The notes under the pieces: generated by a model | Seen by the model: only the letters and a program-made list of their open reading frames with translations | Database searches by the model: none | Told to the model about the DNA's origin: nothing | Made by a program: the position numbers and the translations under genes | Assembly (NCBI GenBank): GCA_023954415.1 | Contig: JAMLIB010000003.1 | Location: 186,001 to 250,000, forward strand | Source: Trueperaceae bacterium | GTDB taxonomy: Bacteria; Deinococcota; Deinococci; Deinococcales; Trueperaceae | Direction: 5' to 3' | Length of the DNA stretch: 64,000 nucleotides | Shown here: in pieces, positions 36,849-55,639 of the stretch | Layout of the letters: each line of letters begins with the position of its first letter | Numbering within the stretch: position 1 is the stretch's first letter

Positions 36849-36885
36849 GCCCTGACTTCCTCCTCCTCGGCCGGCGGCCCGGCCC

Positions 36886-39224: not shown

Positions 39225-39259
39225 CGCTGCTCGACTCCTCCTGTCAGGCCCCGCTGCCC

Positions 39260-40246
39260 TCAGTGCTCGCGGACGGTGAGGATGATCTTGCCTACGTTCT
39301 TGTTCTCCGCCATGCGCTGGTGCGCCACCTCCGCCTCCTGGATGGGGAACACGCGGTCCACCACCGGCTTCAGCCGGCCGTCGTCGAGGGCCTCGCCGAA
39401 GTCGCGCAAGAAGGCATCCTTCATGTCCGCCAGCTCGGCGACCGAGTACTTGCTCAACGTGTCCCCGAGGACGGCGAGGCGCTTGGAGATGATCTGGCGC
39501 ATGTTGATCTCGGTCTGGGTTCCCCCGAGGATGCCGATGAGGAGCAGGCGGCCCTTCAACGCGAGCAGCTCGAGGTTGCGTTGCAGGTAGCCGGCACCGA
39601 CGGTGTCGAGGATGACGTCGACACCCTCGCCACCCCCGAACTCCATGGCCCGCGCGACGAAGTCCTCCTCGTGGTAGCGGATGGCCAGGTCCGCGCCCAT
39701 GGCTTCGCATAGGCGCGCCTTCTCGGCCGAACCAACGGTGACGATGACGCGGCAACCGGCCAGACGGGCGAGTTGGATGGCCGCCGTGCCGACGCCGCTG
39801 GCGCCGCTGTGAATCAGGACCGTCTCGCCCGCCTGGAGGCGGGCGTTGACGAACAGGTTGCCGTAAGCGGTGAGGTAGGCCTCGGGGAGCGCCGCGGCCT
39901 CCGCCATGCTCAGTCCGGCGGGCACCGGCATGAGCAAGCGCTGCGGCACGCGGACCCTCTCGGCGTAGCCCCCACCCAGCGTCAGGCAGACCACGCTGTC
40001 GCCTACGGACCATGCCCGGACGGCGGAGCCGCGCTGGCTTATGCGCCCGGCAGCCTCGCCTCCAAGGATCTCGGAGCGACCCGGGGTCGTCGGGAAGTTG
40101 CCTTCTCGGTGTAGCAGGTCGGCGCGGTTGAGCGCGGTGGCTTGGACGTCGATGATCACATCGTCTTCGCCGCATGCGGGGTCGGCCACGTCTTGCCATA
40201 ACAGGGGGCGGCCAGGGCGGTTCCGGTCCACGACGATCGCCTTCAT
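39260..40246 (-). CDS. NADPH:quinone oxidoreductase-like protein (zinc-independent MDR family)
   Basis: This 328-residue medium-chain dehydrogenase/reductase has an N-terminal catalytic domain (TALNRADLLHREGNFP) and a nucleotide-binding domain with LIHSGASGVGTAAIQLARLAGCRVIVT. It lacks the cysteines of the structural zinc loop. This matches the PIG3/quinone oxidoreductase subgroup. It is the first gene of the leftward operon, divergent from a peptide-binding protein across a 273-bp promoter region, and 35 bp before the racemase-like gene. Its link to peptide catabolism is unclear. Confidence 0.88.
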   Translation of the reverse strand: MKAIVVDRNRPGRPLLWQDVADPACGEDDVIIDVQATALNRADLLHREGNFPTTPGRSEILGGEAAGRISQRGSAVRAWSVGDSVVCLTLGGGYAERVRVPQRLLMPVPAGLSMAEAAALPEAYLTAYGNLFVNARLQAGETVLIHSGASGVGTAAIQLARLAGCRVIVTVGSAEKARLCEAMGADLAIRYHEEDFVARAMEFGGGEGVDVILDTVGAGYLQRNLELLALKGRLLLIGILGGTQTEINMRQIISKRLAVLGDTLSKYSVAELADMKDAFLRDFGEALDDGRLKPVVDRVFPIQEAEVAHQRMAENKNVGKIILTVREH

Positions 40247-40412
40247 CTACCTATGACCTCGCTCTCCGCTCGTGCGGCCTGGATGCTAGCACAGCCTGGT
40301 GGGCGGTCGCCCCTTTCGGAGATTAACGCCGTCACAGACGGGCTTTCTAGATCATCATCGAGCTCGCTGGGCCGATCTTTTCTCCCATATGTTGGGACGG
40401 CTATCCTTGTAG

Positions 40413-40441
40413 TTGACATGCATGATAGGTGCCTCTATAGT
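40413..40441 (+). promoter_or_regulatory. sigma70-type promoter of the binding protein/permease operon
   Basis: TTGACA (40413-40418), 17 bp, then TATAGT (40436-40441): the closest consensus match in the window, 78 bp before the start at 40520. A CATGCATG repeat lies at the start of the spacer. The rest of the 273-bp gap to the divergent gene shows no other structure. Confidence 0.75.
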
Positions 40442-40519
40442 GGCGCGCACGTACAGCGGAGCAGGCCGGCGCCGCGGCGTACTGTCGACCATCGGTTCAG
40501 CAACGTAAGGGAGGAACGG

Positions 40520-42079
40520 ATGAAGTCCCCCAGGTTCGCCGTCTCGTATCGCCTATTGGTGGCAGTGGGGCTTGCGCTATGCTGCCTCCTCCCGACCGCC
40601 GCCGCGCAACAGACGGGCGGGAAGCTGACGGTCGCCATCGGCGTGCCAGCCGTGACCCTTGCCCCGGGCAAGTCGATCGCGTCGATCGTGAACAGCATCA
40701 CCGAAGGCATCTACGAAGGACTCGTCGAGAGGGACGCCAGCGGAGCCGTCCTACCAGGTCTGGCGACCTCGTGGAGCCTCGCCGAGGACGACGTCACCTG
40801 GACCCTGACCTTGCGGCAGGGCGTCCGGTTCCACGACGGCACCGAGTTCTCCGCCGATGACGTCAAGGCCACGTTCGACCGCATCCTGAACCCCGACTTC
40901 GCGTTGCCGCTGAGCTCCGTCCTTAAAGTCGTCTCGCGCGTCGAGGTGGTGGACCCTTACACGGTCAAGATCATCACCGGCAGTCCGACGCCCGACTTCC
41001 TCAACCGTCTCGCCTACGGCGTGGCCGTCATCATCAGCAGCGATGCCGTCGAGAAGTACGGCGCCGACATCGACTGGACGCCGGTCGGCACCGGCCCGTA
41101 CCGCCTGGAGTCCTACGTTCCCAACGAGAGCGTCACCCTGGTCGCCTTCCCCGACTACTGGGGCGGCACCCCGTTGCTCGATCGCGTCGAGTTCCGCACG
41201 GTTCGCGAGCCGGGCACGCGCGTCGCGCTGCTCGAGGCGGGCGAGGTCGACATCATCGTCGACGTGCCGGCCACCGACCTGCCTGGCCTGAAGGCGCAGG
41301 CCGACAAGGCCGTGCTGTTGGCGCCGAGCACGCGAGTCATGCACATCGGCGTCAACACTCAGGTGGCGCCTTTCGACAACGTCCTCGTTCGCCAGGCGCT
41401 CAACTACGCCATCGATCAGGACGGTTTGGTCAACGGCGTGCTTCAGGGCGTCGGACAACCCGCCCGCTCTATTATCTCCCCGGTGGTCACCGGCTTCTCG
41501 CCGGTGAGCGAGTACCGCTACGATCCGGATACGGCTCGGCGCCTGCTCGCGGAGGCCGGCTATCCGAACGGCTTCAGCGCAACGCTCTGGACGCCGGAAG
41601 GCCGCTACTTCCAGGACCGCGCCACGGCGGTGGCCGTGCAGAGCATGCTGGGTGACATCGGCGTGAACGTGGATGTAAGGGTCATCGACTGGGCCACGTA
41701 CCTGGAGATCCTCCGGCGCCCTGTCGACTCTAGCGAGACCCAGCTCTACCTGCTCGGCTGGGAGTCGGGCACCGGCGACATCGGTTACGTGCTGGACCTG
41801 ATCTTCCACACCTCGACGTGGCCACCCGCCGGCTGGAACACGATGTTCTACAGCAACCCGGAGGTCGACGCCCTGATCGAGACGGCTCGCGTCACCATGG
41901 ATCCGGATACGCGCCAGGCGCTGGCGACGCAGATCCAGGAGCGCATCGTCAGTGACGCCCCGTGGGTCTTGCTCAACGTGACCGAGGAAACGGCCGCCAT
42001 GAGCAGCAAGGTGAACGGCCTCGAGCTGCTGCCGGGCGATGTCTACTCGCTGAAGACGGTGTGGCTGGACAAAGACTAG
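40520..42079 (+). CDS. peptide ABC transporter substrate-binding protein (SBP family 5)
   Basis: This 519-residue binding protein has the ATG at 40520 after AAGGGAGG. The signal peptide ends TAAA|QQTGG. The mature protein has GKLTVAIGVPAVTLAPGKS, FHDGTEFSADDVKATFDRI and VGTGPYRLESY, all family signatures. The frame extends upstream to 40253 without support. It heads a three-gene transporter operon without an ATPase, divergent from the peptidase operon. The two units probably act together under the IclR protein. Confidence 0.9.
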   Translation: MKSPRFAVSYRLLVAVGLALCCLLPTAAAQQTGGKLTVAIGVPAVTLAPGKSIASIVNSITEGIYEGLVERDASGAVLPGLATSWSLAEDDVTWTLTLRQGVRFHDGTEFSADDVKATFDRILNPDFALPLSSVLKVVSRVEVVDPYTVKIITGSPTPDFLNRLAYGVAVIISSDAVEKYGADIDWTPVGTGPYRLESYVPNESVTLVAFPDYWGGTPLLDRVEFRTVREPGTRVALLEAGEVDIIVDVPATDLPGLKAQADKAVLLAPSTRVMHIGVNTQVAPFDNVLVRQALNYAIDQDGLVNGVLQGVGQPARSIISPVVTGFSPVSEYRYDPDTARRLLAEAGYPNGFSATLWTPEGRYFQDRATAVAVQSMLGDIGVNVDVRVIDWATYLEILRRPVDSSETQLYLLGWESGTGDIGYVLDLIFHTSTWPPAGWNTMFYSNPEVDALIETARVTMDPDTRQALATQIQERIVSDAPWVLLNVTEETAAMSSKVNGLELLPGDVYSLKTVWLDKD

Positions 42080-42120
42080 GCTAGGGGCCTCGTCCCAACC
42101 GGCCGGGTCTCCCAGAGCCT

Positions 42121-43041
42121 ATGCTGCGCCTCCTTCTCTATCGGGTGCTGGGGCTGGCCGTGATCCTGGTGCTGGTCTCGGTCATCTCGTTCTCGATCAC
42201 CTACGTTGTGCCCGGCGATGTCGCTCTCGTCATCGCCGGGCCCGGCGCCAGCCAGGCCTCGATCGAGAAGATCCGCAGCGACCTGCTCCTCGACGAGCCC
42301 TTCCTGGTTCGTTACGGCACGTGGCTCGGCTCCGTGATGCGCGGCGACTTGGGTGCCTCGGCCATCACCAGGCAACCGGTGGCCGAGATCGTCGGCTTCC
42401 GGCTGGTCAACACGATGAAGCTAGCCCTGGCCGGCATCGTCCTCGCCATCGTTCTTGGCATCGCGCTCGGTCTGGTGGCGGCCCTGTACCGCAACAGCCT
42501 TGTCGACTACGGGGCCATGCTCGTATCGGTCCTGGGCATATCCGCGCCCGTGTTCTGGGTGGGGTTGATGCTGATATACGTCTTCAGCGTCCGCCTGCGC
42601 TGGCTGCCCATCACCGACCAGGGTGGTGTCGCCCACCTGATCCTCCCAGCCATAACCATCGGGATGTACTCCGTGGCGGTCATCGCCCGCGTGACCCGCT
42701 TCAACCTGCTCGAGGTGCTCGGTCGGGACTACATCCGCACGGCCAAGGCCAAGGGCGCCTCCACCGCGCGGATGTCACTGAAGCACGCGCTCAAGAACGC
42801 CCTCATCCCGGTGGTCACGGTGATCGGACTCCAGTTCGGTTACCTCATGGGTGGGGCGGTCCTCACCGAGACCGTGTTCGCCTATCCGGGCATCGGCCGG
42901 CTCTTCGCCGACGTCGTGTTCACCCGCGACTTCCCGGTCATGCAGATCCTCATGCTGCTGCTCGCCGCCATCTTCGCCGTCACCAACTTCCTGGTCGACA
43001 TCTCCTACGCCCTGCTCGATCCTCGGATCCGTCATGCCTGA
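42121..43041 (+). CDS. peptide ABC transporter permease, DppB type
   Basis: This 306-residue six-helix permease begins RLLLYRVLGLAVILVLVSVISF. Its EAA-type loop is GRDYIRTAKAKGASTARMSLKHALKNAL. ETVFAYPGIGRLFADVVFTRDFPV follows. It lies 41 bp after the binding protein and 6 bp before the DppC-type gene, in one operon. Confidence 0.9.
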   Translation: MLRLLLYRVLGLAVILVLVSVISFSITYVVPGDVALVIAGPGASQASIEKIRSDLLLDEPFLVRYGTWLGSVMRGDLGASAITRQPVAEIVGFRLVNTMKLALAGIVLAIVLGIALGLVAALYRNSLVDYGAMLVSVLGISAPVFWVGLMLIYVFSVRLRWLPITDQGGVAHLILPAITIGMYSVAVIARVTRFNLLEVLGRDYIRTAKAKGASTARMSLKHALKNALIPVVTVIGLQFGYLMGGAVLTETVFAYPGIGRLFADVVFTRDFPVMQILMLLLAAIFAVTNFLVDISYALLDPRIRHA

Positions 43042-43047
43042 GGCGCC

Positions 43048-43878
43048 ATGACGGGCCGCCGCTTCTGGAAGGCGTTGCGGCGCAACAAGGCGGCGCTGGT
43101 CGGCTTCGTCCTCTTCGCCATCTTCCTGACCTGCGCCGTGTTCGCCCCGGCCCTCGCGCCGGCCAACCCCAACAGGGCCAACTTCTCCATGGTCCTGCAT
43201 CCACCCAGCGCCGCCGCCATACTCGGCGCCGACGAACTGGGGCGCGACATCCTCAGCCGCATCCTCTTCGGCGCGCGAGCCTCCTTCCTCGTCGCCGCGT
43301 CGACCACCGCCATCGCCGCCGTGATCGGCGTGCTGCTCGGGTTGCTGGCCGGCTACTACGGCGGGTTGGTCGACGCGATCATCATGCGCGCGGCCGACTT
43401 GCTGTTGGCCTTCCCCAGCTTCCTGGTGGCGTTGGTCATCGTCGGCATCCTCGGTCCTGGTCTCGTGAACGTGATCCTGGCCGTCGGCGTCCTCTTCGTG
43501 CCGCGCTTCGTGCGGCTGATGCGCGCCTCCGTGCTCTCCGTGCGGGAGAACGAGTACGTGGAGGCCATGGCGGCCCTCGGCAGCCGGACGCCGCGCATCA
43601 TCTTCCACCACGTCCTGCCCAACGCCATGGCGCCGATAATCGCCTTGACCGCCATCGTCAGCGGCGAGGCCATCCTCATCGGCTCAGGACTGGGCTTCCT
43701 CGGCCTCGGCGCGCAACCGCCACTTGCCGAATGGGGAGCGATGTTGAGCGAGGGTCGGGTCTACCTGACCACCGCGCCGCATGTCGCTGCTTTCCCAGGC
43801 CTAGCCATCATGGGCCTAGTCGTGGCTCTCAATCTCATAGGCGATGGGGTCAGGGACGCGTTGGACGTGCGGCTCTAG
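43048..43878 (+). CDS. peptide ABC transporter permease, DppC type
   Basis: This 276-residue permease begins RRFWKALRRNKAALVGFVLFAIF. It has LGADELGRDILSRILFGARASF and an EAA-type loop NEYVEAMAALGSRTPRIIFHHVLPNA. It is the last gene of its operon. Convergent with it, after 118 bp containing a small CGCCGG-TCCCG-CCGGCG hairpin (43968-43984), lie two small envelope genes. No ATPase gene is nearby. Confidence 0.9.
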   Translation: MTGRRFWKALRRNKAALVGFVLFAIFLTCAVFAPALAPANPNRANFSMVLHPPSAAAILGADELGRDILSRILFGARASFLVAASTTAIAAVIGVLLGLLAGYYGGLVDAIIMRAADLLLAFPSFLVALVIVGILGPGLVNVILAVGVLFVPRFVRLMRASVLSVRENEYVEAMAALGSRTPRIIFHHVLPNAMAPIIALTAIVSGEAILIGSGLGFLGLGAQPPLAEWGAMLSEGRVYLTTAPHVAAFPGLAIMGLVVALNLIGDGVRDALDVRL

Positions 43879-44594: not shown

Positions 44595-44712
44595 ACGGTA
44601 GCCCTCCTTCTCGCCGCGGTGCAGGCCGCATTAGGCCTTGCGCCGTTCAAGGAAGATAGCACCAGATCGTGAGAGTCGGGGTGCCGGCGTCACGCCGCGG
44701 TTACAGGGTGGT

Positions 44713-44718
44713 TACAGT
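44713..44718 (+). promoter_or_regulatory. -10 box of a leaderless promoter for the phosphodiesterase-like gene
   Basis: TACAGT is followed by 6 nt (ggccgc) and the ATG at 44725. The phrase GGTTACAG occurs twice in tandem just before it (44698 onward). Confidence 0.5.
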
Positions 44719-44724
44719 GGCCGC

Positions 44725-45945
44725 ATGCCGAAGGTCTTCCTGATCATGCTGGACGGCGTGAGCGCCGACACGTTCCGGTCTCACCACAGCCGGTTGCCGT
44801 TCCTCTCGCGTTTGGCTGCCGGCGGCTTCAGCGTCGAGAGGTTGCGCTCGCTTGTGCCCGGCATCTCTTTGCCTGGCAGGACGTCGATCCTCACGGGGCG
44901 CGGCGCGGCCGAGGCCGGCGTGTACGGCAACAACGTGTGGCACGACACGCGCTTCAGCTACGCCGACCCGGACGACGTGCGGGTCCCGACGTTGCCGCGG
45001 TTGGCGCTGGCGGCCGGGCTGGACGTGGCTTGCGTCGGCTTCGGGATGGTGAGACCGGAGGACGCGACCGTCTTCAAGCGGCCGTGGTGGGCGGACAACT
45101 TCGTGCAGCGGGCCCGCGACGACGTCGGGGAGCCCGCGCAAGGCGCCTGGCGCCGCGCGGCCGACCACGTCGACCCGACGGGGCGCCTGGTCGCCGCGGC
45201 GACGGCCGCGGGCTACCCGAGCGACTACCCCGAGCGCTTCCCGGACAGGCGCGTCTACGCCTTCACCGGCGACATGCACGTGGCCAACTGGGTCGGCTTG
45301 CTCGCCGCGGCCGACCCGGCGCCCGACTTCGTCCTGACCGAGTTCCTGGTGACCGACTCCGTCCAGCACAGCCACGGTTTCGACACCGAGGCGTCGCTGT
45401 GGGCGCTCGGCTACCTCGACGCGCTGGTGGGCGTGACGCTGAGCCGCCTCGGGGAGCGCGCCGCCGAGTACAACTTCGTGATCCTGAGCGATCATGGCCA
45501 TTGGCACGTGCAGAAGGCTTTGCGACCGGAGGCCATCCTGCCGGGCATGCAGGCGGACTGCCAGGGCGCCATGCTGCACGTGAAGGTCGACTCGGCGGCC
45601 GACGAGGCACGGGCCACGGCCGCGCTCGCCGAGCACGGCGTGGTGCCTTACGACCCGGCATACCTACCGGAGGACCACCGCGCGTTCCTGCGTCCTTACC
45701 TCGCGCCGGACGGCTTCTCCTTCGAGTCCGGACCCTCGGAGCTGCCCGTCACGGAGCCGAAGAACATCTCCAGCCACGGTCTGCGGCCGGGGCATCCGGC
45801 GGACGACCGCTTCATGTTCATGAGCGGACCCGACGTGCCGGCGGGTACCGTCGCCATGGCGGACGCCGACCAGGTGGCGCCGACCGTGGCCCAGCTGCTC
45901 GGGATCGCGACGGGCGTGTTCCCGGGGCGGTCGTTGCTGGGGTGA
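44725..45945 (+). CDS. alkaline phosphatase superfamily protein (nucleotide pyrophosphatase/phosphodiesterase-like)
   Basis: This 406-residue metallo-phosphoesterase has metal and nucleophile motifs in order: FLIMLDGVSADTF (Asp), SLPGRTSILTGRG (Thr nucleophile), TDSVQHSHGFDTE (Asp, His), ILSDHGHW (Asp, His) and ISSHGLRPGHP (His). This is the ENPP-type layout. There is no signal peptide, so it is probably cytoplasmic. The frame opens at 44638, but the ATG at 44725 sits 6 nt after a -10 box and starts directly in the core fold. Its stop is 3 bp from the convergent GntR gene. The substrate is unknown. Confidence 0.82.
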   Translation: MPKVFLIMLDGVSADTFRSHHSRLPFLSRLAAGGFSVERLRSLVPGISLPGRTSILTGRGAAEAGVYGNNVWHDTRFSYADPDDVRVPTLPRLALAAGLDVACVGFGMVRPEDATVFKRPWWADNFVQRARDDVGEPAQGAWRRAADHVDPTGRLVAAATAAGYPSDYPERFPDRRVYAFTGDMHVANWVGLLAAADPAPDFVLTEFLVTDSVQHSHGFDTEASLWALGYLDALVGVTLSRLGERAAEYNFVILSDHGHWHVQKALRPEAILPGMQADCQGAMLHVKVDSAADEARATAALAEHGVVPYDPAYLPEDHRAFLRPYLAPDGFSFESGPSELPVTEPKNISSHGLRPGHPADDRFMFMSGPDVPAGTVAMADADQVAPTVAQLLGIATGVFPGRSLLG

Positions 45946-45948
45946 GGC

Positions 45949-46605
45949 TCAGGGAAACGCGACCGACTGCCCGCGCATATACGCCGCCGTGCGCAGGCGG
46001 TGCTCCCGTCCGATGCGTTCCAACTCCCAGGGGTCCGTGGCGGGGTCAACTAGCAGCCGTGTGATCAGCTCGTGCTCCCGCAGGTCTTCCGCCGCGCGGT
46101 TGGGCACGAGGTGGAACGCGGTGACAGCCAGCATGGCGTCGAGTTGACTCCAGAAGACCCTGATGCTGTCAAGGAGCTGCGCATTGCCAGCGGCCTCGTA
46201 GATGGTGAAGTGGAAACTCCGATTGAGTTCGATGAACCACTCCCACATACCCTGGTTCAGCGCCAGTTGAAGCTTCTCGTTGAGTGCGGTCAACTCGGGA
46301 GCGAGGTGCGCGCGATGCGCGGCCGCTTCCACCGTGCCGTAGCCTTCCAGCACTGCTAACAGTCGGATGACGTCGTATATCTCCTCGGCAGATACCCAGG
46401 AGACCACGGCGCCGACATACGGAGTTATCGAGACAAGGCGCTCGGCTTCGAGCTTCAGCAGCGCCTCCCGAACGGGCAGGACACTGATCCCGATCTCGTC
46501 GGCAAGATGGGCAGCCGTTATGCGTTGGCCTGGGAGTAGGCGCTTCTCGCGGATGCAGCGCTTTATGTAGTCGTAGGCTAGATCTTTCTTGGTCTGCCGT
46601 GCCAT
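45949..46605 (-). CDS. GntR family transcriptional regulator, FCD subfamily
   Basis: This 218-residue regulator has an N-terminal winged helix (GQRITAAHLADEIGISVLPVREALLKLEAERLV, residues about 26-58) and an FCD domain with ELNRSFHFTIYEAAGN, whose His residues usually bind a metal and a carboxylate ligand. GGGTGGAGG precedes the ATG. It is divergent from the MaoC gene across 83 bp containing a perfect 16-bp palindrome, which is probably its operator. It likely controls the whole rightward operon and itself. Ligands of the FCD group are usually small organic acids. Confidence 0.88.
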   Translation of the reverse strand: MARQTKKDLAYDYIKRCIREKRLLPGQRITAAHLADEIGISVLPVREALLKLEAERLVSITPYVGAVVSWVSAEEIYDVIRLLAVLEGYGTVEAAAHRAHLAPELTALNEKLQLALNQGMWEWFIELNRSFHFTIYEAAGNAQLLDSIRVFWSQLDAMLAVTAFHLVPNRAAEDLREHELITRLLVDPATDPWELERIGREHRLRTAAYMRGQSVAFP

Positions 46606-46621
46606 CCTCCACCCCCTTCTG

Positions 46622-46637
46622 ATATCTTATAAGATAT
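46622..46637. promoter_or_regulatory. perfect 16-bp palindromic operator (GntR candidate)
   Basis: ATATCTTATAAGATAT is an exact palindrome between the divergent GntR and MaoC genes. It is strikingly AT-rich against its surroundings. Its position 17 bp before the regulator start suits autoregulation. A related TCTTATATAATCTAAGG lies at 47213-47229. Confidence 0.7.
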
Positions 46638-46688
46638 AGCTCTGATTTCAAAGCCTGGTCAGGCTCGACGCGAAGGGAGCGACCAACG

Positions 46689-47165
46689 ATGGCTGACGCA
46701 ACGATACTCGACCGCGGCAGGTTCTACGAGGACTTCGAGGTCAACGAGGAGTTCCGTCATTGGCCGGGGAGAACCATCTCCGAGGCGGACAATACGTGGT
46801 TCACGCTGCTCACGATGAACACGCACCCGCTGCATTTCGACGTGCAGTACGCTGCCGGTACCGTGTTCGGCCGACCCATCGTGAACAGCTGTTTGACTTT
46901 TTCCATCGTGGCCGGTATGTCCGTCAGAGACATCAGTCAGAACGCCATCGCTAATCTCGGGTTCGATGCCATCGAGATCCCGGCGCCCTTGTTCAACGGC
47001 GACACGTTGTATGCCTCGACCGTCATCTTGGATAAGCGGCTGTCGCGTTCGGATCCGAGTCGGGGGATCGTGAAGGTGCGCACCACAGGCGTGAATCAGC
47101 ATGGTCAAGAGGTGTTGAGGTTGCAGCGCTCGATCCTGGTGCCGGTGCGCTCGGTCGAAGGCTGA
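46689..47165 (+). CDS. MaoC-family hotdog hydratase (enoyl-CoA/mesaconyl-CoA hydratase-like)
   Basis: This 158-residue MaoC-like dehydratase/hydratase begins RGRFYEDFEVNEEFRHWPGRTISEADNTWFTLLTMNTHPLHFD, the family's hallmark, with the Asp/Asn...His catalytic pair in the hydratase 2 motif. FGRPIVNSCLTFSIVAGMS and VRTTGVNQHGQEVL follow. Relatives hydrate short unsaturated CoA esters such as mesaconyl- or itaconyl-type thioesters. GAAGGGAGC precedes the ATG. Downstream lie a transporter, a CoA-transferase and a CitE-like lyase, which together fit CoA-dependent C5-dicarboxylate catabolism. Confidence 0.82.
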   Translation: MADATILDRGRFYEDFEVNEEFRHWPGRTISEADNTWFTLLTMNTHPLHFDVQYAAGTVFGRPIVNSCLTFSIVAGMSVRDISQNAIANLGFDAIEIPAPLFNGDTLYASTVILDKRLSRSDPSRGIVKVRTTGVNQHGQEVLRLQRSILVPVRSVEG

Positions 47166-47179
47166 GCTCAGGCGCGGCG

Positions 47180-47229
47180 TTGACAGATGCTGCGACAAAT
47201 GCGTATAACCTCTCTTATATAATCTAAGG
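47180..47229 (+). promoter_or_regulatory. promoter and operator-like site upstream of the binding protein
   Basis: TTGACA (47180-47185), 18 bp, then TATAAC (47204-47209). TCTTATATAATCTAAGG (47213-47229) follows directly, at the expected transcription start. It shares TCTTATA with the palindrome at 46622 and may be a second, weaker GntR site. The remaining 166 bp to the ATG at 47396 show no clear structure. Confidence 0.6.
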
Positions 47230-47395
47230 TTTCCGGAAGGAGCGCCCAGCTGTCGACAGCGGTGTCAATAGGCTCTCGCCGAGGCTCGGCCGAGCGCGGA
47301 CCAGGGAGTCAAGCGACGCCGTCTAGGATCCATGCTCACGGCATTTCAGGATCGGCGCCACCGAATGGAGGCGCATTCAGAGAGGGGTACCCCAC

Positions 47396-48952
47396 ATGAT
47401 TCGACGGCATACGTTGAACGTGATAGCGCTCATCATCGCGATGGCGGCGACGCTCTTGAGCGTAGCCGCGGCCCAGGCGACGCCCAAGGCCGGAGGCATC
47501 CTGAGGGTTGCGATCACGGGTGACCCGCCTGGCCTCGACTCTGCGGTGACGACCTCCGCCATAACGGCAGAGATCAATAACCACATCACGGAGATGCTCT
47601 ACGCCTTTGACGGGGACGGGATCGTACGGCCGATGTTGGCCGCCGCCCTCCCCGACATCAGCGCAGACGGTCTGACGTACACGATTCGCCTGCGGGCCGG
47701 CGTCATGTTCCACGACGGCAGCCTTCTCGACTCGGGAGACGTCAAGGCCTCCCTGGAGCGTTGGCACCGCCTCAGCTATGGCAAGACGGTCCTGAAGAAC
47801 TTGGTGGCGATAGACACACCGGATGAGCTCACCGTCGTGATCAGGTTGTCGGCGCCCGTGGGGATCCTCACGTCCGCGTTAGGCTTCGATAACTACGCTT
47901 CCGGCATCTACACGGCAGAGCAGTTGGCAGGTGCTGGCGATGATCCCATCGCTGTGCCGATCGGTACTGGCCCTTACCGACTCAAAGAGTGGATACGTGG
48001 CCAGAGCGTCGTCCTGGAGCGCTTCCCCGAGTACTCTGCTCGTTCCGAGGAGCCTTCCGGTGACGCGGGCCGCAAGAACGCATGGCTTGATGAGATCCAC
48101 TTCATCAGTGTTCCCGACGCCGCTACCCGCCAGGGAGGACTAGAGTCCGGCGAATACGACGTCAACTACAGAGCGGCTGGAGAGGATTACGAGTTCATCG
48201 AGTCGTCCTCCAAGATGTGGCCTTGGATGCCGCCAGTCGGCTACAACTACACCCTCCTCTTGAACTTCAACTCGCCACTGATTCAGAACCTCAAGCTGCG
48301 GCAGGCTATCCAGGCTACCCTCGATATGGATGCGATCGCTCTGGGCGCCTTCGGTAATGAGGCGCTCTACGACCTCAATCCCGGCGTGCTTCCGCCTGGG
48401 TTCGGCGGCATGTACACCGACGCGGGTAAGGAACTGTACGATCAGCGGAACCCGGAACTTGGCAGGAAGCTGCTCGAGGAATCGGGTTACGACGGCACGC
48501 CGATCCGGTGGATCACCACGCGCGATTTCTCGTATCAGTACGCAGGCACGCTGATCGCCGTAGATCAATTGGAGGCGATCGGCCTCAAGAGCGAGATCAT
48601 CGTTCGCGACTGGGCGACCACGGTCGAGACCAGGTCCAAGCCTGACGCCTGGGAGATCTTCGTAGGTAACCAGATCTCCGGCCCCGAGCCGGAGATGATC
48701 GCGATCATCAACCCTGGCTGGGTCAACGCGTACGACGGCTCGCCCGAGTTCGCCGACCTCATGGCGGAGTTGCGCGTCACCGCGGATCCGGTGAAGCGTG
48801 CCGAGCTTTGGGCCCAGGCGCAGGAGGCCTACTACGAGGACGTCGGCAGCGTGAGGGTGTCCGACACCTTCCTACTGGTGGCCTACTCATCCAGAGTGCA
48901 CGTGCAGGCAAGGTACATCGCCTTCCAGGCCTGGAACACCTGGATAGAGTGA
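47396..48952 (+). CDS. peptide-type ABC transporter substrate-binding protein (SBP family 5)
   Basis: This 518-residue binding protein has a signal peptide ending VAAA|QATPKAGG, then GILRVAITGDPPGLDSAVTTSAITAEINNHITEML, FHDGSLLDSGDVKASLERW and IGTGPYRLKEWIRGQ. It lies within the GntR-controlled unit and heads its own transporter genes, with a separate promoter. Family 5 proteins usually bind peptides, nickel chelates or peptide-like opines. The ligand here is likely related to the acid processed by the adjacent CoA enzymes. Confidence 0.9.
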   Translation: MIRRHTLNVIALIIAMAATLLSVAAAQATPKAGGILRVAITGDPPGLDSAVTTSAITAEINNHITEMLYAFDGDGIVRPMLAAALPDISADGLTYTIRLRAGVMFHDGSLLDSGDVKASLERWHRLSYGKTVLKNLVAIDTPDELTVVIRLSAPVGILTSALGFDNYASGIYTAEQLAGAGDDPIAVPIGTGPYRLKEWIRGQSVVLERFPEYSARSEEPSGDAGRKNAWLDEIHFISVPDAATRQGGLESGEYDVNYRAAGEDYEFIESSSKMWPWMPPVGYNYTLLLNFNSPLIQNLKLRQAIQATLDMDAIALGAFGNEALYDLNPGVLPPGFGGMYTDAGKELYDQRNPELGRKLLEESGYDGTPIRWITTRDFSYQYAGTLIAVDQLEAIGLKSEIIVRDWATTVETRSKPDAWEIFVGNQISGPEPEMIAIINPGWVNAYDGSPEFADLMAELRVTADPVKRAELWAQAQEAYYEDVGSVRVSDTFLLVAYSSRVHVQARYIAFQAWNTWIE

Positions 48953-49007
48953 CTTCAGCCGGTCCTGGCCACGCGAGGCGCGCGCGTGGCCAGGACCGCT
49001 CTCGACC

Positions 49008-49952
49008 ATGGTCGCCTACCTCCTTAGACGCCTGGTTTCGTTGTTGTCCATCCTGGTCGTGGTCGGGCTGGTGGTCTTCTTCCTTGTCCGGCTCGTCCCC
49101 GGCGATCCGACCTCGGCACTGCTCGGCGAGAACGCCACGGCCGAGCAGGTCGAGGCGCTGCGCACGCGCCTAGGATTGGACCGCACGCTACTCGCTCAGT
49201 TCGGCGCTTGGATGGAGAGCGTCGCCCGGGGCGACCTCGGCATGAGCATCTACATGCGGATACCGGTCGTCACGGCCGTCATCCAACGCATCGAGCCGAC
49301 AGGCATGCTCGCTTTGGCTGCCACGCTAGTCGCGGTTCTTCTCGGCGTGAGCCTAGGGGTGATCGCCGCCATAAAACACAACACCGGGGTCGACTACGCG
49401 GTGATGGTCATAGCCATGCTCGGGCTCTCCTTGCCGACCTTCTGGCTGGGGCTTCTGATGATCATGCTCTTCGCCGTGACGTTGCAGTGGTTGCCCGCTG
49501 CCGGCTACGTTTCCATCCTGCAGGAACCAGTGGCTAGTCTCAGGTACCTCCTCATGCCCGCCCTGGCTCTCGGGTTCAGCCAGGCCGCCATCATCGCTCG
49601 CATGACGCGCGCGAGCGTCCTTGACACCCTGGGTGAGGACTACGTGCGAACGGCCCACGGCAAGGGACTTCCGGCTTCGAGGGTCGTCATCGGCCATGCC
49701 CTGCGCAACGCCATCTTGCCGATCGTGACGGTCATCGGGCTCTCGATAGCCACGTTGGCCGGCGGCGTCGTTGTCACGGAGACGGTGTTCAATATCCCCG
49801 GCGCAGGGCGTTTGGTGATCGACTCCGTGTTGCGGCGCGATTATCCGGTCATCCAGGGGTCTGTGCTCATGGTGGCGTTCGTCTACGCGTTCGTCAACCT
49901 GTTAGTGGACCTGAGTTACGCGTTCTTCGATCCTCGAATCAGGTATCAGTGA
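49008..49952 (+). CDS. peptide-type ABC transporter permease, DppB type
   Basis: This 314-residue six-helix permease begins AYLLRRLVSLLSILVVVGLVVFF. The EAA-type loop is GEDYVRTAHGKGLPASRVVIGHALRNA, followed by ETVFNIPGAGRLVIDSVLRRDYPV. It lies 55 bp after the binding protein and 21 bp before its partner. Confidence 0.9.
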   Translation: MVAYLLRRLVSLLSILVVVGLVVFFLVRLVPGDPTSALLGENATAEQVEALRTRLGLDRTLLAQFGAWMESVARGDLGMSIYMRIPVVTAVIQRIEPTGMLALAATLVAVLLGVSLGVIAAIKHNTGVDYAVMVIAMLGLSLPTFWLGLLMIMLFAVTLQWLPAAGYVSILQEPVASLRYLLMPALALGFSQAAIIARMTRASVLDTLGEDYVRTAHGKGLPASRVVIGHALRNAILPIVTVIGLSIATLAGGVVVTETVFNIPGAGRLVIDSVLRRDYPVIQGSVLMVAFVYAFVNLLVDLSYAFFDPRIRYQ

Positions 49953-49973
49953 CTCGGGCGTCCTGGGTAGAGC

Positions 49974-50840
49974 ATGGCGTCTGAGACCGCGTCCGTGACC
50001 GCGCCACGAAGAAGGGCCGGCTTGAGACGCCTGCTGTCACGTCGGATAGCGGTGGCCGGCGGGGTTCTCATCATCGTCATCGCTATCGTCGGTCTGGCCG
50101 CCCCGCTGTTGACCCCCTACGACCCGAACGGGCTGCAGATCAGCGACCGCCTGAGGCCGCCCTCTAGCGCGCACCCTCTCGGCACCGACAACTTCGGGCG
50201 TGATGTCTGGGCGAGGACCGTGTTCGGCACGCGACTCTCCCTGGTCGTTGGCCTCAGTACCGCCCTGATCACTGCCGTTCTAGGCACTCTCTTGGCTTTG
50301 CTCGCTGGGACATACCGCTTCCTGGGCGAACTCATCATGCGTGTCATGGACGGGCTCATGGCCTTGCCGGCAACGTTGCTGGCGATCGCCATCATGGCGG
50401 CCGTCGGACCAAGGGTCGAGAACATGGTGGTGGCGTTGAGCTTGGTCTACTTGCCCCGCTCCACCCGCGTCGCGCGGGCTGCTGTCCTTGTGGTGCGAGA
50501 GCAGATCTTCGTGGAGGCCGCCATCGCGCTAGGCGCAGGTAACCGCGGGATCATGCGGCGCCATATCTTGCCTGGTGTCCTCTCGCCCGTGATCGTGCAG
50601 GCCACGTACGTCTTCGCGACGGCGGTCCTACTCGAGGCCTCGCTGTCGTTCCTCGGGGTCGGCGCGCCGCCCGAAGTGCCGAGCTGGGGGATCATGTTGT
50701 CAGAGGGGCGCCTGCTCATGCGCAACGCACCCTGGATGACGGTGTTCCCCGGAACCCTTCTAGCCCTGACCGTTCTGTCCGTCAACATGCTCGGCGACGG
50801 CCTGCGGGACGCCCTGGATCCCAAGATGAAGAGAGGCTGA
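49974..50840 (+). CDS. peptide-type ABC transporter permease, DppC type
   Basis: This 288-residue partner permease has LGTDNFGRDVWARTVFGTRLSLV and an EAA-type loop EQIFVEAAIALGAGNRGIMRRHILPG, ending SVNMLGDGLRDALDPKMK. It lies 6 bp before the CoA-transferase gene, so transporter and CoA enzymes are on one transcript. Confidence 0.9.
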   Translation: MASETASVTAPRRRAGLRRLLSRRIAVAGGVLIIVIAIVGLAAPLLTPYDPNGLQISDRLRPPSSAHPLGTDNFGRDVWARTVFGTRLSLVVGLSTALITAVLGTLLALLAGTYRFLGELIMRVMDGLMALPATLLAIAIMAAVGPRVENMVVALSLVYLPRSTRVARAAVLVVREQIFVEAAIALGAGNRGIMRRHILPGVLSPVIVQATYVFATAVLLEASLSFLGVGAPPEVPSWGIMLSEGRLLMRNAPWMTVFPGTLLALTVLSVNMLGDGLRDALDPKMKRG

Positions 50841-50846
50841 CGACAT

Positions 50847-52178
50847 ATGTCCGAGTCAAGTGCCAGGCTGCCTGGGGGCGAGCCTGACGCAACGAGGCCA
50901 CTACGCGGAGTGCGTGTCCTAGCGATCGAGCAGTACGGTGCCGGCCCTTTCGCAACGCTCGTGCTCGCCGACCTTGGTGCCGAAGTGATCAAGATCGAGC
51001 TACCCGAGCAGGGCGACGTAGGACGCGGCATCCCCCCATGGACGGACGGGGCAGACAGCTTGTTCTTCCAGAGCCTCAACCGCGGGAAGCGGAGCGTCGC
51101 CGTCGATCTGAAGGAGCGGCGCGGCAGACAGCTCTTCGAGCGCTTGGTGGCCAACTCCGACGCGGTGTTCGCGAACACGCGCGGCCTTTCCCCTAGTAAG
51201 CTCCGCATCACTTACGCCGACCTGGCCCGCTTCAACCCCGCGATCGTCTGTGCGTTCCTCACGGGCTTCGGGCGAACCGGACCGCGCGCAGACGAGCCCG
51301 GCTACGACTACATAGTCCAGGCGATGAGCGGCATGGCATCGCTAGGTGGGGAGCCGGAGGGGCCACCAACGAGGGCGGGCGTCAGCGTCGTCGACTTCGC
51401 CACGGGCCTTGCCGCCGCCTTGGGGTTGCTCGCCGGCCTGCATAGGGCCAGAACGACAGGGGTAGGCGGCGACGTCGACACGAGCCTGCTCCTCACGGCG
51501 CTGAACCTCACGAACTACGTCTCCAGTTGGGTCCTGACAAGAGGTTTCCAACCGGAGCGACTGCCGCATGGAGCGCACCCGTCGGTCGTGCCCTCCCAGC
51601 TCTTCGAGGCGAGCGACGGGTGGCTCATGGTGATGAGTCAGACTGACGCCTTCTTCCGCGAACTCGTCAAGCGGATCGACCTCCCCGAGGTACTGGCTGA
51701 TTCGCGGTTCGGGACGATGGCCGGACGCCTCGAGAACCGCGAGGCGCTGCTCGGGCTGCTCGAAGCGAGGTTCCGGGAGCGAACCGTGGCCCAGTGGCTT
51801 GACCGACTCGAGGGCGCAGTGCCTGTGGCACCCGTGAACGACCTCCCGACCGCCCTGCGTGAGCCTCAGGTGGTGGAGACCTCCATGCTCGTGTCTTTCC
51901 AGCACCCGACCTTCGGGGAGGTCAGGCAAGTCGCCGGACCCGTGCAGGTGTCCTCGCCACCGCCACCTCCGACTCCGGCGCCGGCGCTTGGGGCGGATAC
52001 CTGGAGCGTTCTGCACGCCTTCGCTGGTCTCGACGAGGACACGTTCCAAGAGCTGCTGGCCGACGGCGTCGTCGCTCAAGCACCCTCGGACGCCGGCGGA
52101 GCGGGCGGGAACGCTGAACCGACGTTGGACTCAGACGAGCAGCCGGTGGTCACCGGTGCACGAACCGATAGGAAGTGA
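50847..52178 (+). CDS. family III CoA-transferase (CaiB/BaiF)
   Basis: This 443-residue enzyme moves CoA between carboxylic acids. It starts its fold at PLRGVRVLAIEQYGAGPFATLVLADLGAEVIKIE, with RGKRSVAVDLKERRG and the catalytic Asp in VSVVDFATGLAAALGLL. Family members activate C5 acids such as mesaconate, itaconate and citramalate using succinyl-CoA. The C-terminal 40 residues are a low-complexity extension. The stop overlaps a GTG, but the next gene probably starts at ATG 52187. Given the MaoC and CitE partners, a C5-dicarboxylate is the leading candidate substrate. Confidence 0.85.
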   Translation: MSESSARLPGGEPDATRPLRGVRVLAIEQYGAGPFATLVLADLGAEVIKIELPEQGDVGRGIPPWTDGADSLFFQSLNRGKRSVAVDLKERRGRQLFERLVANSDAVFANTRGLSPSKLRITYADLARFNPAIVCAFLTGFGRTGPRADEPGYDYIVQAMSGMASLGGEPEGPPTRAGVSVVDFATGLAAALGLLAGLHRARTTGVGGDVDTSLLLTALNLTNYVSSWVLTRGFQPERLPHGAHPSVVPSQLFEASDGWLMVMSQTDAFFRELVKRIDLPEVLADSRFGTMAGRLENREALLGLLEARFRERTVAQWLDRLEGAVPVAPVNDLPTALREPQVVETSMLVSFQHPTFGEVRQVAGPVQVSSPPPPPTPAPALGADTWSVLHAFAGLDEDTFQELLADGVVAQAPSDAGGAGGNAEPTLDSDEQPVVTGARTDRK

Positions 52179-52186
52179 GGAAGAGG

Positions 52187-53800
52187 ATGAAGGGAATAGT
52201 CGTTGCGCCCCAACCGGTAGCGGTAGAGCTCGGGGCCAAGGTACTCGAGGACGGCGGCAACGCCTTCGACGCGGTCATCGCTGCCGCCTTCGTGCAGATG
52301 GTCAGCGATCCGTTCATGTGCGGTCTGGGCGGCTGGGGCTCCGGCGTGTTCTATCGGGCCGAGACCGACACGTTCGAGAACATAGGGTTCTGGGCGCGCA
52401 TCGGCTCGAAGATGCGGCCGGACATGTGGGAGAAGGACGTAAAAGGGTTCACCGACATCTGGCGCTTCGCGCTCTTCGATGACCATCGGAACCTCTACGG
52501 CTACACGTCCATCATGACGCCGGGTACGGTCGCGGGCTTCGCCGAGGTCCATCGCCGTTACGCGACCAAGCCGTGGGCGGAACTGCTGCGGCCGAGCATC
52601 GAGCTCTCGGAGAACGGCTTCCACGTTCCTGAATACATGGCCCAGCACTATCGTCAGCTCTTCCTCCCCGGACTCCCGCACCCTCGGGACAAGTACGCGC
52701 ATAACCCGGCGGCGCGTGCCCTCTTCCGTAACTCCGACGAGAGTGACCTGAAGGAACGCGGTGAGTTCTACAGCAACCCCGACCAAGCGCGGGTGCTCAG
52801 GCGGCTTGCCGAGGCTGGTCCCGAGGACTTCTACACGGGCGAGATCGCGGAGGTCATCGCGAACGACTTCGAGGCCAACGGTGCCTTCGTTACCCGCGAG
52901 GACCTGGCCAGCTACCGGCCGGTCGTGGAGCCCGCCCTTGACTCGACCTACCGCGGCTACGACGTGGTGAGCACGGCGCTACCTGGCGGAGGGCTGCTCT
53001 TGCTCCAGATCCTGAACATCCTGGAGCAGTTCGACCTCTCCTCCATGGAACACAACGGCCCTGAGCACGCCTTCATCGTCGGTGGCGCTCTCGCGTGGGC
53101 CGGCGTGACACGCGGCCGACACCTTGCCGACCCTGCTTACCGCGATGTGCCGGTCGCCGAGCTCCTCTCGAAGGAGTACGCGGCAGACATCGCGGAGCGT
53201 ATTCGCCGGAGTGAACTCCCTACCGAAGTGCAGCTCAACCGGCCTGGCTACACGACCCACATCTCGGTCATGGACGAGCTGGGTAACTGCGCTTCGATCA
53301 CTCACACGCTGACCACGTGCGCGGGGATAGTCGTCCCCGGCACGGGGTTCACATGGAACAACTGCGTGTCTTTGATGGACCCGATACCGGGTCGCCCGAA
53401 CTCGTACGAACCGGGCAAGGCGCGCGCCAGCGCGATAGCGGCGACCATCGTCATGCGGGAGGGTCGTCCCTGGATCGTGTTGGGAGCGCCGGGCGGGTGG
53501 TCGGTCACGTCGGCTGTCGCGCAGTCGATAAGCAACATCATCGACTTCGGGATGTCGCCGGTCGAAGCGGCGGCCGCCGCGCGGTTCCACAGCGAGGGCA
53601 ATCCGGTCTACTGCGAAGGTAGGGTCTCGGCCCGCACGGTCGCGGCCCTGCGCGGCCGGGGCATGACGGTCGAGCAGTCGCTCATGAACTTCGAGAACAA
53701 GTTCGGCTCCATCCAGATAGCCATGCATGACGAGAACGGCTTCCGTGGCGGGTCGGACCCGCGCCGCGACGGCGGCACGTTCGCCGTGGCCCATGGTTGA
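52187..53800 (+). CDS. gamma-glutamyltransferase family Ntn hydrolase, no signal peptide
   Basis: This 537-residue gamma-glutamyltransferase-like protein has GGNAFDAVIAAAFVQMVSDPFMCGLGG near the N-terminus and the self-cleavage site with nucleophile Thr in NRPGYTTHISVMDELGNC. It ends in GGSDPRRDGGTFAV. It should split into two chains at that Thr and hydrolyse or transfer gamma-glutamyl or similar amides. Most bacterial homologues are exported, but here the first residues (MKGIVVAPQPVAVELG) are already core fold, so it is cytoplasmic. GAGGAAGAGG precedes the ATG. It sits between the CoA-transferase and the lyase. Confidence 0.85.
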   Translation: MKGIVVAPQPVAVELGAKVLEDGGNAFDAVIAAAFVQMVSDPFMCGLGGWGSGVFYRAETDTFENIGFWARIGSKMRPDMWEKDVKGFTDIWRFALFDDHRNLYGYTSIMTPGTVAGFAEVHRRYATKPWAELLRPSIELSENGFHVPEYMAQHYRQLFLPGLPHPRDKYAHNPAARALFRNSDESDLKERGEFYSNPDQARVLRRLAEAGPEDFYTGEIAEVIANDFEANGAFVTREDLASYRPVVEPALDSTYRGYDVVSTALPGGGLLLLQILNILEQFDLSSMEHNGPEHAFIVGGALAWAGVTRGRHLADPAYRDVPVAELLSKEYAADIAERIRRSELPTEVQLNRPGYTTHISVMDELGNCASITHTLTTCAGIVVPGTGFTWNNCVSLMDPIPGRPNSYEPGKARASAIAATIVMREGRPWIVLGAPGGWSVTSAVAQSISNIIDFGMSPVEAAAAARFHSEGNPVYCEGRVSARTVAALRGRGMTVEQSLMNFENKFGSIQIAMHDENGFRGGSDPRRDGGTFAVAHG

Positions 53801-53830
53801 GCCCATGTCGTGGGATGGAGGACCGAGCGC

Positions 53831-54727
53831 GTGAGCGCCGGGCCGCCGGCGAGCGGAGGGCCTAGCCCGTTGCGGAGTTGGCTGTTCATGCCGGCCGACC
53901 GCCAGCGCTTCCTTGCGAAACTCCCGCGGACTAGCGCGGACGCGGTCGTGCTCGATCTCGAGGACGGTGCGGGTGCGGCGGCTGATGGCGCGCGCGCGAA
54001 CGTGGCCTGGTGGGTGTCGGCGGAAGCGCCCCAGGTACCGCCAGCGCTGTTCGTGCGGACGCGTGAGGTCGATCATCCCGGTTTCGCCGAAGATGTGAGG
54101 GCTGCCGTCGGCCCTAGGCTGACCGGTCTGGTACTACCGAAGGTAGCGGGCACGACCCAGGTCAAGGCCGCCGCCCAAGCGTCTGCCGCCGCAGCCGCTG
54201 CCCATGGTCTGCCGGCTCCGCCACTCGTCCTGATAGTCGAGTCCGCCCGCGGTCTCGAGGCGCTCCAAGCGATGCTTGCGGCCACCGATCGCGTCCGCGC
54301 CGTGGGGTTCGGGGCCGAGGATCTCTCTGCTGACCTGGGATTGCCGCCCCGGGGCGAGCGCGAGACATCCGAAGACGTGATCCTCGATCATGCCCGCGCT
54401 CGCGTGGCGGTCGCATGCGCGGCGGCAGAGGTGGCGATCAGGATCGATACGCCCTGCCTGAGGATCGACGACGAGGAAGGTCTGGTCGGCGAGGTCGTCC
54501 GCGCGTTGAGCTTCGGGTTCGGTGCCAAGTTCCTGATCCACCCCGGGCAGGTGGAACCGCTCCACCGAGCCTTGCTGCCGAGCCCGGAAGAGATCTCCTG
54601 GGCGGAGCGGGCGCTTGCCGCGTCCCCGACTGGTGGTGGGGCGCTACGAGTGGACGGACGCATGGTCGACGAGGCCATACTGCGGCAGGCCAGGGCCGTG
54701 TTGACGCGAGCTGCCGGAGGACGTTGA
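53831..54727 (+). CDS. CitE-like CoA-ester lyase (HpcH/HpaI aldolase family)
   Basis: This 298-residue TIM-barrel lyase has RSWLFMPADRQRFLAKLPRTSADAVVLDLEDGAG, where the Asp/Glu pair binds Mg and the Arg binds substrate. LVLIVESARGLEAL and the C-terminal GFGAKFLIHPGQV follow. Relatives are citrate lyase beta, malyl-CoA, beta-methylmalyl-CoA and citramalyl-CoA lyases. The GTG start at 53831 follows ATGGAGGACC. With the CoA-transferase and MaoC hydratase, cleavage of citramalyl-CoA to acetyl-CoA and pyruvate is the simplest reading. Confidence 0.83.
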   Translation: MSAGPPASGGPSPLRSWLFMPADRQRFLAKLPRTSADAVVLDLEDGAGAAADGARANVAWWVSAEAPQVPPALFVRTREVDHPGFAEDVRAAVGPRLTGLVLPKVAGTTQVKAAAQASAAAAAAHGLPAPPLVLIVESARGLEALQAMLAATDRVRAVGFGAEDLSADLGLPPRGERETSEDVILDHARARVAVACAAAEVAIRIDTPCLRIDDEEGLVGEVVRALSFGFGAKFLIHPGQVEPLHRALLPSPEEISWAERALAASPTGGGALRVDGRMVDEAILRQARAVLTRAAGGR

Positions 54728-54751: not shown

Positions 54752-55639
54752 ATGATCGCGATCGTGATTCACGGTGGGGCGGGCAAGATCGCCGCGGATG
54801 ACCGCGTGCCTTACCTGGCAGGGCTCGAGCGGGCTCGTGACGTCGGTTACCGGGTGCTGGCGGACGGCGGGACGGCGGTCGCCGCGATCCTGGCGGCCGT
54901 CACGACCATGGAGGACGACCTAGCGGCGTTCAACGCCGGCACGGGCGGGTCGCCTAACCGCGACGGGGCCGTGGAGTGCGACGCCGCCATCATGAGCGCC
55001 GATGGCACCAGCGGCGCGGTCGCGGCCGTCACGCGCGCGAAGAACCCCATCCTCCTCGCCGACAAGGTGCGCACGGCGACGCCGCACGCCCTGATCGTCG
55101 GGGCGGGCGCAGACGCGCTCGTCGAGCACCCGATCGACAACGCCCAACTCCTCACCCCTCGCACCCGGCGGGCACTCGAGCGTTGGCGCGAGGACCGTGA
55201 CCTCGGGCCGAAGGGCTCCGCTACGGTCGGGGCGGTGGCCCTGGACGACCACGGCATGCTCGCCGCGGCCACGAGCACGGGCGGCATGCTGGGCAAGTGG
55301 CCCGGCAGGGTCGGTGACGCGCCGCTCATCGGCGCCGGCACGTACGCGGCGCGGCACGTCGGCGTCTCGTGCACGGGCGACGGCGAGGCGTTCATCCGCG
55401 CCGTGACGTCGAAAGGGCTCGCCGACCGGCTTCGGGCGGGCGTCGAGCTGGGCGCGGCGGTGCGATCGGCCCTCGACGAGGTCGCCGTCCAGAACGCCAC
55501 GGGCGGCGTGATCGTCCTGACGGCGGACGGCCATATCGCCAGCGGTTTCAACGCCCGCGACATGGCCTACGCGTGGCGCACTCCTGGCGGAGCCGACGCG
55601 TGCGTCTCGGCGGAGCCGGGCGTGCGGTTGGTCGGCTGA
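54752..55639 (+). CDS. isoaspartyl peptidase / plant-type L-asparaginase
   Basis: This 295-residue Ntn hydrolase starts directly with IAIVIHGGAGKI and has NAGTGGSPNRDGAVECDAAIM. The autocleavage site is in KGSATVGAVALDDHG, with the nucleophile Thr, and the substrate-binding GGMLGKWPGRVGDAPLIGAGTYA follows. It hydrolyses beta-aspartyl dipeptides and asparagine. It is a second self-processing amidase beside the gamma-glutamyltransferase. Its stop is 7 bp from the convergent OsmC gene. Confidence 0.88.
   Translation: MIAIVIHGGAGKIAADDRVPYLAGLERARDVGYRVLADGGTAVAAILAAVTTMEDDLAAFNAGTGGSPNRDGAVECDAAIMSADGTSGAVAAVTRAKNPILLADKVRTATPHALIVGAGADALVEHPIDNAQLLTPRTRRALERWREDRDLGPKGSATVGAVALDDHGMLAAATSTGGMLGKWPGRVGDAPLIGAGTYAARHVGVSCTGDGEAFIRAVTSKGLADRLRAGVELGAAVRSALDEVAVQNATGGVIVLTADGHIASGFNARDMAYAWRTPGGADACVSAEPGVRLVG

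Follow-up and report, generated by a model that had tools for sequence, protein, structure and literature searches.

A candidate unit for import and breakdown of an amide-type C5 dicarboxylic acid conjugate in a Trueperaceae bacterium

Gene content and regulatory sites of the locus

Here, we describe a gene cluster at positions 45949-54727 of a 64,000-nt window (the whole stretch of DNA analysed; Trueperaceae bacterium GCA_023954415.1, JAMLIB010000003.1:186,001-250,000), in which a transcriptional regulator faces genes for a peptide-type importer, a hydrolase of the gamma-glutamyltransferase (GGT) fold, and three enzymes of coenzyme A (CoA) metabolism. The genome bearing the window (3.2 Mb) is referred to as G000, and G003, G004, and G005 are members of the same genus. 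All genes named in the initial annotation of this region lie intact where it had placed them. The regulator, of the GntR-FCD type (45949-46605, minus strand; Pfam GntR and FCD, 49.1 bits each, both above cut-off), diverges from the plus-strand genes, which encode a RipB/Ich-like MaoC hydratase (46689-47165; Pfam MaoC_dehydratas), a family 5 substrate-binding protein (SBP) with a Sec-type signal peptide (47396-48952; SBP_bac_5, 193.8 bits), a DppB-type permease (49008-49952; BPD_transp_1 and BPD_transp_1_N), a DppC-type permease (49974-50840; BPD_transp_1 and OppC_N), a family III CoA-transferase (50847-52178; CoA_transf_3, 373.7 bits), a GGT-fold N-terminal nucleophile (Ntn) hydrolase (52175-53800; G_glu_transpept, 374.7 bits), and a Ccl/RipC-like C-C lyase of the HpcH/HpaI, CitE-like family (53810-54727; HpcH_HpaI, 108.8 bits).

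The genes from the SBP to the lyase are closely packed: 6 bp separate those for DppC and the CoA-transferase, the latter overlaps the GGT-fold gene by 4 bp, and 9 bp follow before the lyase gene. The widest gap inside the unit (230 bp) lies between the MaoC and SBP genes. No ATPase gene was found within the unit, and the genome has four oligo_HPY (DppD/F) matches at other places. The closest solved structure to the SBP is AgaA (6hlx), and the SBP relatives in rhizobia (37% identity) adjoin metallohydrolase and RidA genes, a setting that gave no clue to the ligand.

The 83 bp between the regulator and MaoC genes contain a perfect 12-base palindrome, ATCTTATAAGAT (46624-46635), as a candidate operator. 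It occurs as the sole exact copy per genome in G000, G005, and G003, at the same place in each, and is preserved in G003 while most of the surrounding bases differ. Its core, TCTTATAAGA, has a single copy in each of G000 and G005 and two copies in G003, all of them in this locus: before the MaoC gene and, for the second copy of G003, in the MaoC-SBP gap. The equivalent place in the window (47180-47224, plus strand, before the SBP gene) carries a promoter-like TTGACA-N18-TATAAC followed by a putative degenerate second operator, TCTTATATAATC (47213-47224), which aligns with the exact TCTTATAAGA of G003; shuffled versions of the G003 stretch gave zero matches. Because the palindrome is distributed in this way, the regulator looks dedicated to the unit, with the MaoC gene and the SBP-lyase segment under one control. 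Judged from these sites, the locus is one regulatory unit with candidate operators before the MaoC and SBP genes, in keeping with the apparent unit of the initial annotation, and this is supported by the conserved gene order as well as by the distribution of TCTTATAAGA and ATCTTATAAGAT. A wider regulon was also sought with the exact 12-base palindrome in 21 genomes; this gave a single further site, in G007, which has no GntR gene next to it and was dropped.

The GGT-fold hydrolase and the CoA enzymes

The GGT-fold protein retains the catalytic centre of the family, with the nucleophile T360 and the oxyanion glycines G440 and G441 corresponding to T391, G483, and G484 of Escherichia coli GGT. 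In the E. coli enzyme, R114, S462, and S463 hold the glutamate carboxylate, and N411, Q430, and D433 hold the alpha-amino group (PMC6769717). The residues at E. coli positions R114, N411, Q430, D433, S462, and S463 are W, T, C, L, S, and A in the window protein, and identically so in G003, G004, and the Planctomycetota relative L034. Since residues for both the alpha-amino group and the carboxylate have been lost, a gamma-glutamyl conjugate is an unlikely substrate, and the amide of a non-amino diacid is favoured. Losing amino-group contacts is known to turn gamma-glutamyl specificity into specificity for diacid amides, as the D433N substitution enabled E. coli GGT to act as a glutaryl-7-ACA acylase, which hydrolyses the amide of a C5 diacid (PMC8062742). 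R75, two residues past the Trp at the R114 position, is invariant across an 11-sequence alignment and may bind the distal carboxylate of the substrate.

The protein begins at the mature N-terminus, without a signal peptide, and at 339.8 bits does not reach the cut-off of NCBIfam TIGR00066 (357.85). A second GGT of the same genome (G000:C7) has canonical residues and a clear signal peptide; it carries E at the Q430 position, as does Bacillus subtilis GGT (PMC8062742). An AlphaFold model of the unit's protein (mean pLDDT, the predicted local confidence score, 73) and Foldseek both verify the GGT fold. The fold matches include LmbA/Ant6 (21-22% identity), 2nlz (26%), and a chain of HpxW (5hft; E 1.9e-11, 24%), an oxamate amidohydrolase of the GGT fold that acts on an oxalyl amide. 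Separately, three loci in other Deinococcota (L065, L066, L067) contain SBP, GGT-like, DppB, and DppC modules without CoA genes, whose GGT-like proteins likewise lack the canonical gamma-glutamyl residues.

Of the CoA enzymes, the lyase obtains 157.1 bits with the RipC_Ccl model, beside 157.7 bits for the proven Ccl of Pseudomonas aeruginosa, with the cut-off (375) above both, and its metal and lid residues are retained. It scores 91 bits on citE and 62 bits on the malyl-CoA lyase model, on which P. aeruginosa Ccl scores 28. In the tree, the lyases from all four genomes group together (support 0.993), and their low mutual identity therefore reflects divergence and not replacement. The best model for the MaoC protein is RipB_Ich (172 bits, under the cut-off of 340); homologues in C5-diacid clusters score 188-219 bits, and its identity to the MaoC proteins of such clusters is 46-56%. 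The CoA-transferase falls in a fully supported clade with enzymes of Azospirillum, Amycolatopsis, Rhodococcus, Tistrella, Variovorax, and Aminobacter that excludes E. coli Frc and YfdE, and support for a link between the CoA-transferase and the succinate-glutarate enzyme is weak. This clade is without a characterised member, and its genes adjoin MaoC, lyase, acyl-CoA dehydrogenase, or MmgE/PrpD genes, which are the usual company in itaconate and methylsuccinate clusters (PMC12290011). A malyl-CoA, citrate lyase, or oxalate identity for the lyase and the CoA-transferase, the first and last of which the initial annotation had named as possible grounds against its proposal, was rejected, given the family scores and the tree. 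The set was originally likened to Ict-Ich-Ccl of P. aeruginosa; the best models of the lyase and MaoC proteins support this, but P. aeruginosa Ict and the CoA-transferase are not orthologues.

Conservation, flanking genes, and related neighbourhoods

The whole block is present in G005 at 87-98% identity, and the same gene order is found in G003 at 55-72% identity (lyase 41%), with regulator orthologues at the same place in both (96% and 64%, respectively). In G004, the end of the CoA-transferase gene, the GGT-fold gene, and the lyase gene lie at a contig end, and in two further members of the genus (G001 and G002), no GGT match was obtained at the threshold used. Between the window and G005, the ratio of nonsynonymous to synonymous substitution rates (dN/dS) is 0.04-0.15 across the unit, apart from the lyase, and the unit genes are under purifying selection. 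Together with an order kept in a congener at such divergence, this argues that the arrangement is not due to chance.

The same set was sought more widely. A GGT profile run on 111 Deinococcota genomes gave four orthologues above 1,150 bits, with the next best protein at 382, and the gene set was not found beyond this genus in these genomes. A scan of ~85,000 species with two exact 7-residue GGT patterns, which diverged copies may escape, gave 11 loci, and the other genes were present only in two members of the genus. On plasmids, the same set was not found, and the best GGT (41% identical) stands beside an SBP and an alpha/beta hydrolase. A search of 343 Planctomycetota genomes and of the surroundings of eight Gemmatimonadota GGTs did not yield the set either.

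At its downstream end, the unit may include one more gene, at which the original gene list, otherwise right, had stopped short: an Asparaginase_2/isoaspartyl-peptidase-like gene (54752-55639, plus strand; Asparaginase_2, 244.5 bits), a possible accessory member that begins 24 bp past the lyase end and is present in G005 and absent from G003. The gene upstream, encoding a type I phosphodiesterase/nucleotide pyrophosphatase-like protein (44638-45945), is convergent with the regulator and outside the unit; it is kept in G005 and lies on another contig in G004. Between the window and G005, synonymous divergence (dS) across the unit is 0.20-0.28, while the asparaginase gene reaches 0.57 and the upstream gene 0.36, and this difference suggests that the unit has a history distinct from its flanks. 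Farther upstream (33919-43878), minus-strand genes for M28, M20, and M24 peptidases and an Asp/Glu/hydantoin racemase-domain protein face a divergent plus-strand SBP-DppB-DppC set, and the importer part of this cluster also adjoins the unit in G005.

Several neighbourhoods in other organisms bear on the substrate. The nearest relative of the GGT-fold protein outside the genus (55% identity; the sole such GGT in the 343 Planctomycetota genomes) is encoded in a Planctomycetota metagenome-assembled genome (L034, 8386-13133), between an SSF symporter gene and the genes for both subunits of a class I fumarase/tartrate-dehydratase-type hydratase, and class I fumarase is known to hydrate mesaconate (PMC12290011). 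In another Trueperaceae genus (G010; L030, 2488-14006), a P. aeruginosa-like set of Ccl, Mcd, Ict, and MaoC genes is accompanied by genes for an IclR regulator, two isochorismatase-fold hydrolases, a LeuA-like synthase, and an SBP-DppB-DppC importer, and this locus may embody the same principle independently. Hydrolase genes also stand next to C5-diacid sets in Azospirillum (amidase), Amycolatopsis (isochorismatase-type and CocE-type), and Rhodococcus (amidase and hydantoinase), and the clusters inspected in P. aeruginosa, Thermus, and Deinococcus showed no such amidase gene alongside. These associations are suggestive only of amide hydrolysis being joined to C5-diacid catabolism through interchangeable hydrolases. 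A further arrangement was observed on an Amycolatopsis plasmid (L071, 8489-19251), where MaoC and lyase genes form two sets, one per strand, around genes for CocE, isochorismatase, aminotransferase, and lysine 2,3-aminomutase.

Proposed pathway, alternatives, and comparison with known systems

We propose, with a probability of about 0.48, that the locus is dedicated to the catabolism of a branched C5 dicarboxylic acid supplied as an amide-type conjugate. The acid is likeliest mesaconic, itaconic, or methylsuccinic acid, in the form of a half-amide or a peptide-like amide. In this scheme, the SBP and the DppB/DppC permeases, energized by ATPases encoded elsewhere, would import the intact conjugate, and the cytoplasmic GGT-fold enzyme, after self-cleavage before T360, would hydrolyse the amide to release the free diacid. 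The family III CoA-transferase would then convert the diacid and succinyl-CoA to a CoA ester, the RipB-type MaoC hydratase would yield citramalyl-CoA, and the Ccl-type lyase would split it to acetyl-CoA and pyruvate. The GntR-FCD protein is predicted to bind TCTTATAAGA and repress both promoters until released by an intermediate. As the CoA-transferase belongs to a clade separate from that of Ict, the acid may be itaconate or, equally, mesaconate or methylsuccinate. The initial annotation had likewise suggested conjugate import followed by hydrolysis, and this is supported, with the hydrolase, which has no signal peptide, predicted to act inside the cell. Of the two conjugates it had offered, the C5-diacid amide survives and is strengthened, whereas the gamma-glutamyl derivative, along with the label gamma-glutamyltransferase itself, is contradicted by the missing binding residues.

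Several observations weigh against this proposal. We infer the substrate and every reaction, and every protein scores below its NCBIfam cut-off. The set is restricted to one genus in the data searched, and a lack of conservation outside this genome had been named at the outset as a point that would count against the pathway; with the set kept in congeners, it applies by half. The CoA-transferase lies outside the fully supported clade of P. aeruginosa Ict, to which it is 32% identical. The lyase changes fast (dN/dS 0.31, the quickest of the unit's proteins), and a column that is Asn in 7/7 reference lyases is R in the window, H in G004, and N in G003. In the GGT-fold enzyme, the carboxylate-holding R114 and S463 are lost as well as the amino-group contacts.

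Import and hydrolysis could also serve an acid other than a branched C5 compound, for instance fumarate (through fumaryl-CoA and malyl-CoA to acetyl-CoA and glyoxylate) or a homologue with a longer chain or a hydroxyl group. The lack of a characterised member in the CoA-transferase clade leaves room for this, the lyase exceeds P. aeruginosa Ccl on the malyl-CoA model, and the SSF-GGT-fumarase neighbourhood suits fumarate or tartrate as well as mesaconate. However, the lyase scores 95 bits more on RipC_Ccl than on the malyl-CoA model, the hydratase fits RipB_Ich best, and free fumarate would require no CoA route, and we regard such an acid as rather unlikely. It is still less probable that two modules with different substrates are merely juxtaposed, one importing a peptide or amide and including the GGT-like hydrolase, the other being a pathway for a free C5 diacid. 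Modules of SBP, GGT-like protein, DppB, and DppC do exist without CoA genes in other Deinococcota, and related importer and GGT-like modules occur in Rhizobium and Terrarubrum, but here the CoA-transferase gene sits between the DppC and GGT-fold genes, overlapping the latter, and both the order and the dedicated candidate operators are conserved.

A gamma-glutamyl compound or glutathione might instead be imported and cut by a true cytoplasmic GGT, with the CoA enzymes taking the acid part. Staphylococcus aureus GisABCD-Ggt offers a precedent for coupling a peptide-type importer to a cytoplasmic GGT (PMC10355420), and GsiB is among the weak best models of the SBP (94.5 bits, cut-off 594), but the binding residues are lost in all orthologues, the TIGR00066 cut-off is missed, and the genome has a separate canonical GGT, which together make this explanation quite improbable. 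Lastly, cleavage of a C-C or other acyl bond in place of an amide, for which LmbA-type GGT homologues devoid of GGT activity provide a model (PMC5519988) and LmbA structures appear among the fold matches at 22% identity, is the least credible of the alternatives, as enzymes of this fold commonly hydrolyse amides, the identity to LmbA is low, and other C5-diacid sets adjoin ordinary amidases.

If the unit does act in this way, C5-diacid CoA pathways would be fed by conjugates and not by free acids alone, and a natural amide of such an acid would await discovery; a new GGT-fold specificity would also become readable from sequence. The GGT-fold enzyme might then represent a new amidohydrolase branch of the fold, specific for unsaturated C5 (or C4) diacids in half-amide or peptide-like amide form, within a full pathway from import to central metabolism. 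We hold this proposal only tentatively and with the odds against it; it would mean that mesaconate, itaconate, or a similar acid is available in nature as an amide-bound nutrient. Importer-adjacent proteins annotated as gamma-glutamyltransferases often lack the gamma-glutamyl-binding residues, and glutathione-related readings of such loci would mislead.

The literature searched contains no pathway that joins a GGT-fold acylase, a peptide-type importer, and a C5-diacid CoA trio, and the gene combination looks new. The trio of CoA-transferase, MaoC hydratase, and CitE-like lyase is shared with Ict-Ich-Ccl of P. aeruginosa, which likewise uses a family III CoA-transferase, and with RipABC of Yersinia. 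Unlike both, the unit pairs a short RipB-type hydratase with a family III transferase, which belongs to a clade other than that of Ict and is not of the acetyl-CoA hydrolase type represented by RipA. In place of the tripartite ATP-independent periplasmic (TRAP) transporter, it has a peptide-type ATP-binding cassette (ABC) importer, to which the GGT-fold hydrolase is added, and it lacks the acyl-CoA dehydrogenase and MmgE/PrpD genes of itaconate and methylsuccinate systems. Linkage of a peptide-type ABC importer to a signal-peptide-free GGT-fold protein is shared with GisABCD-Ggt of S. aureus (PMC10355420), whereas the unit is without an ATPase gene of its own (GisA), has lost the gamma-glutamyl residues, and has gained CoA enzymes. 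LmbA and Ant6 of 4-alkyl-proline biosynthesis are also GGT homologues without gamma-glutamyl activity (PMC5519988), but their C-C cleavage is biosynthetic and their identity to the unit's enzyme is low. Identity is low, too, to the class IV cephalosporin acylases (26%, 2nlz) and HpxW, the likeness to the latter being a fold match alone. The class IV acylases use the GGT fold on glutaryl amides with the D433 position altered (PMC8062742), as it is here, to Asn in their case and to Leu in the unit's enzyme.

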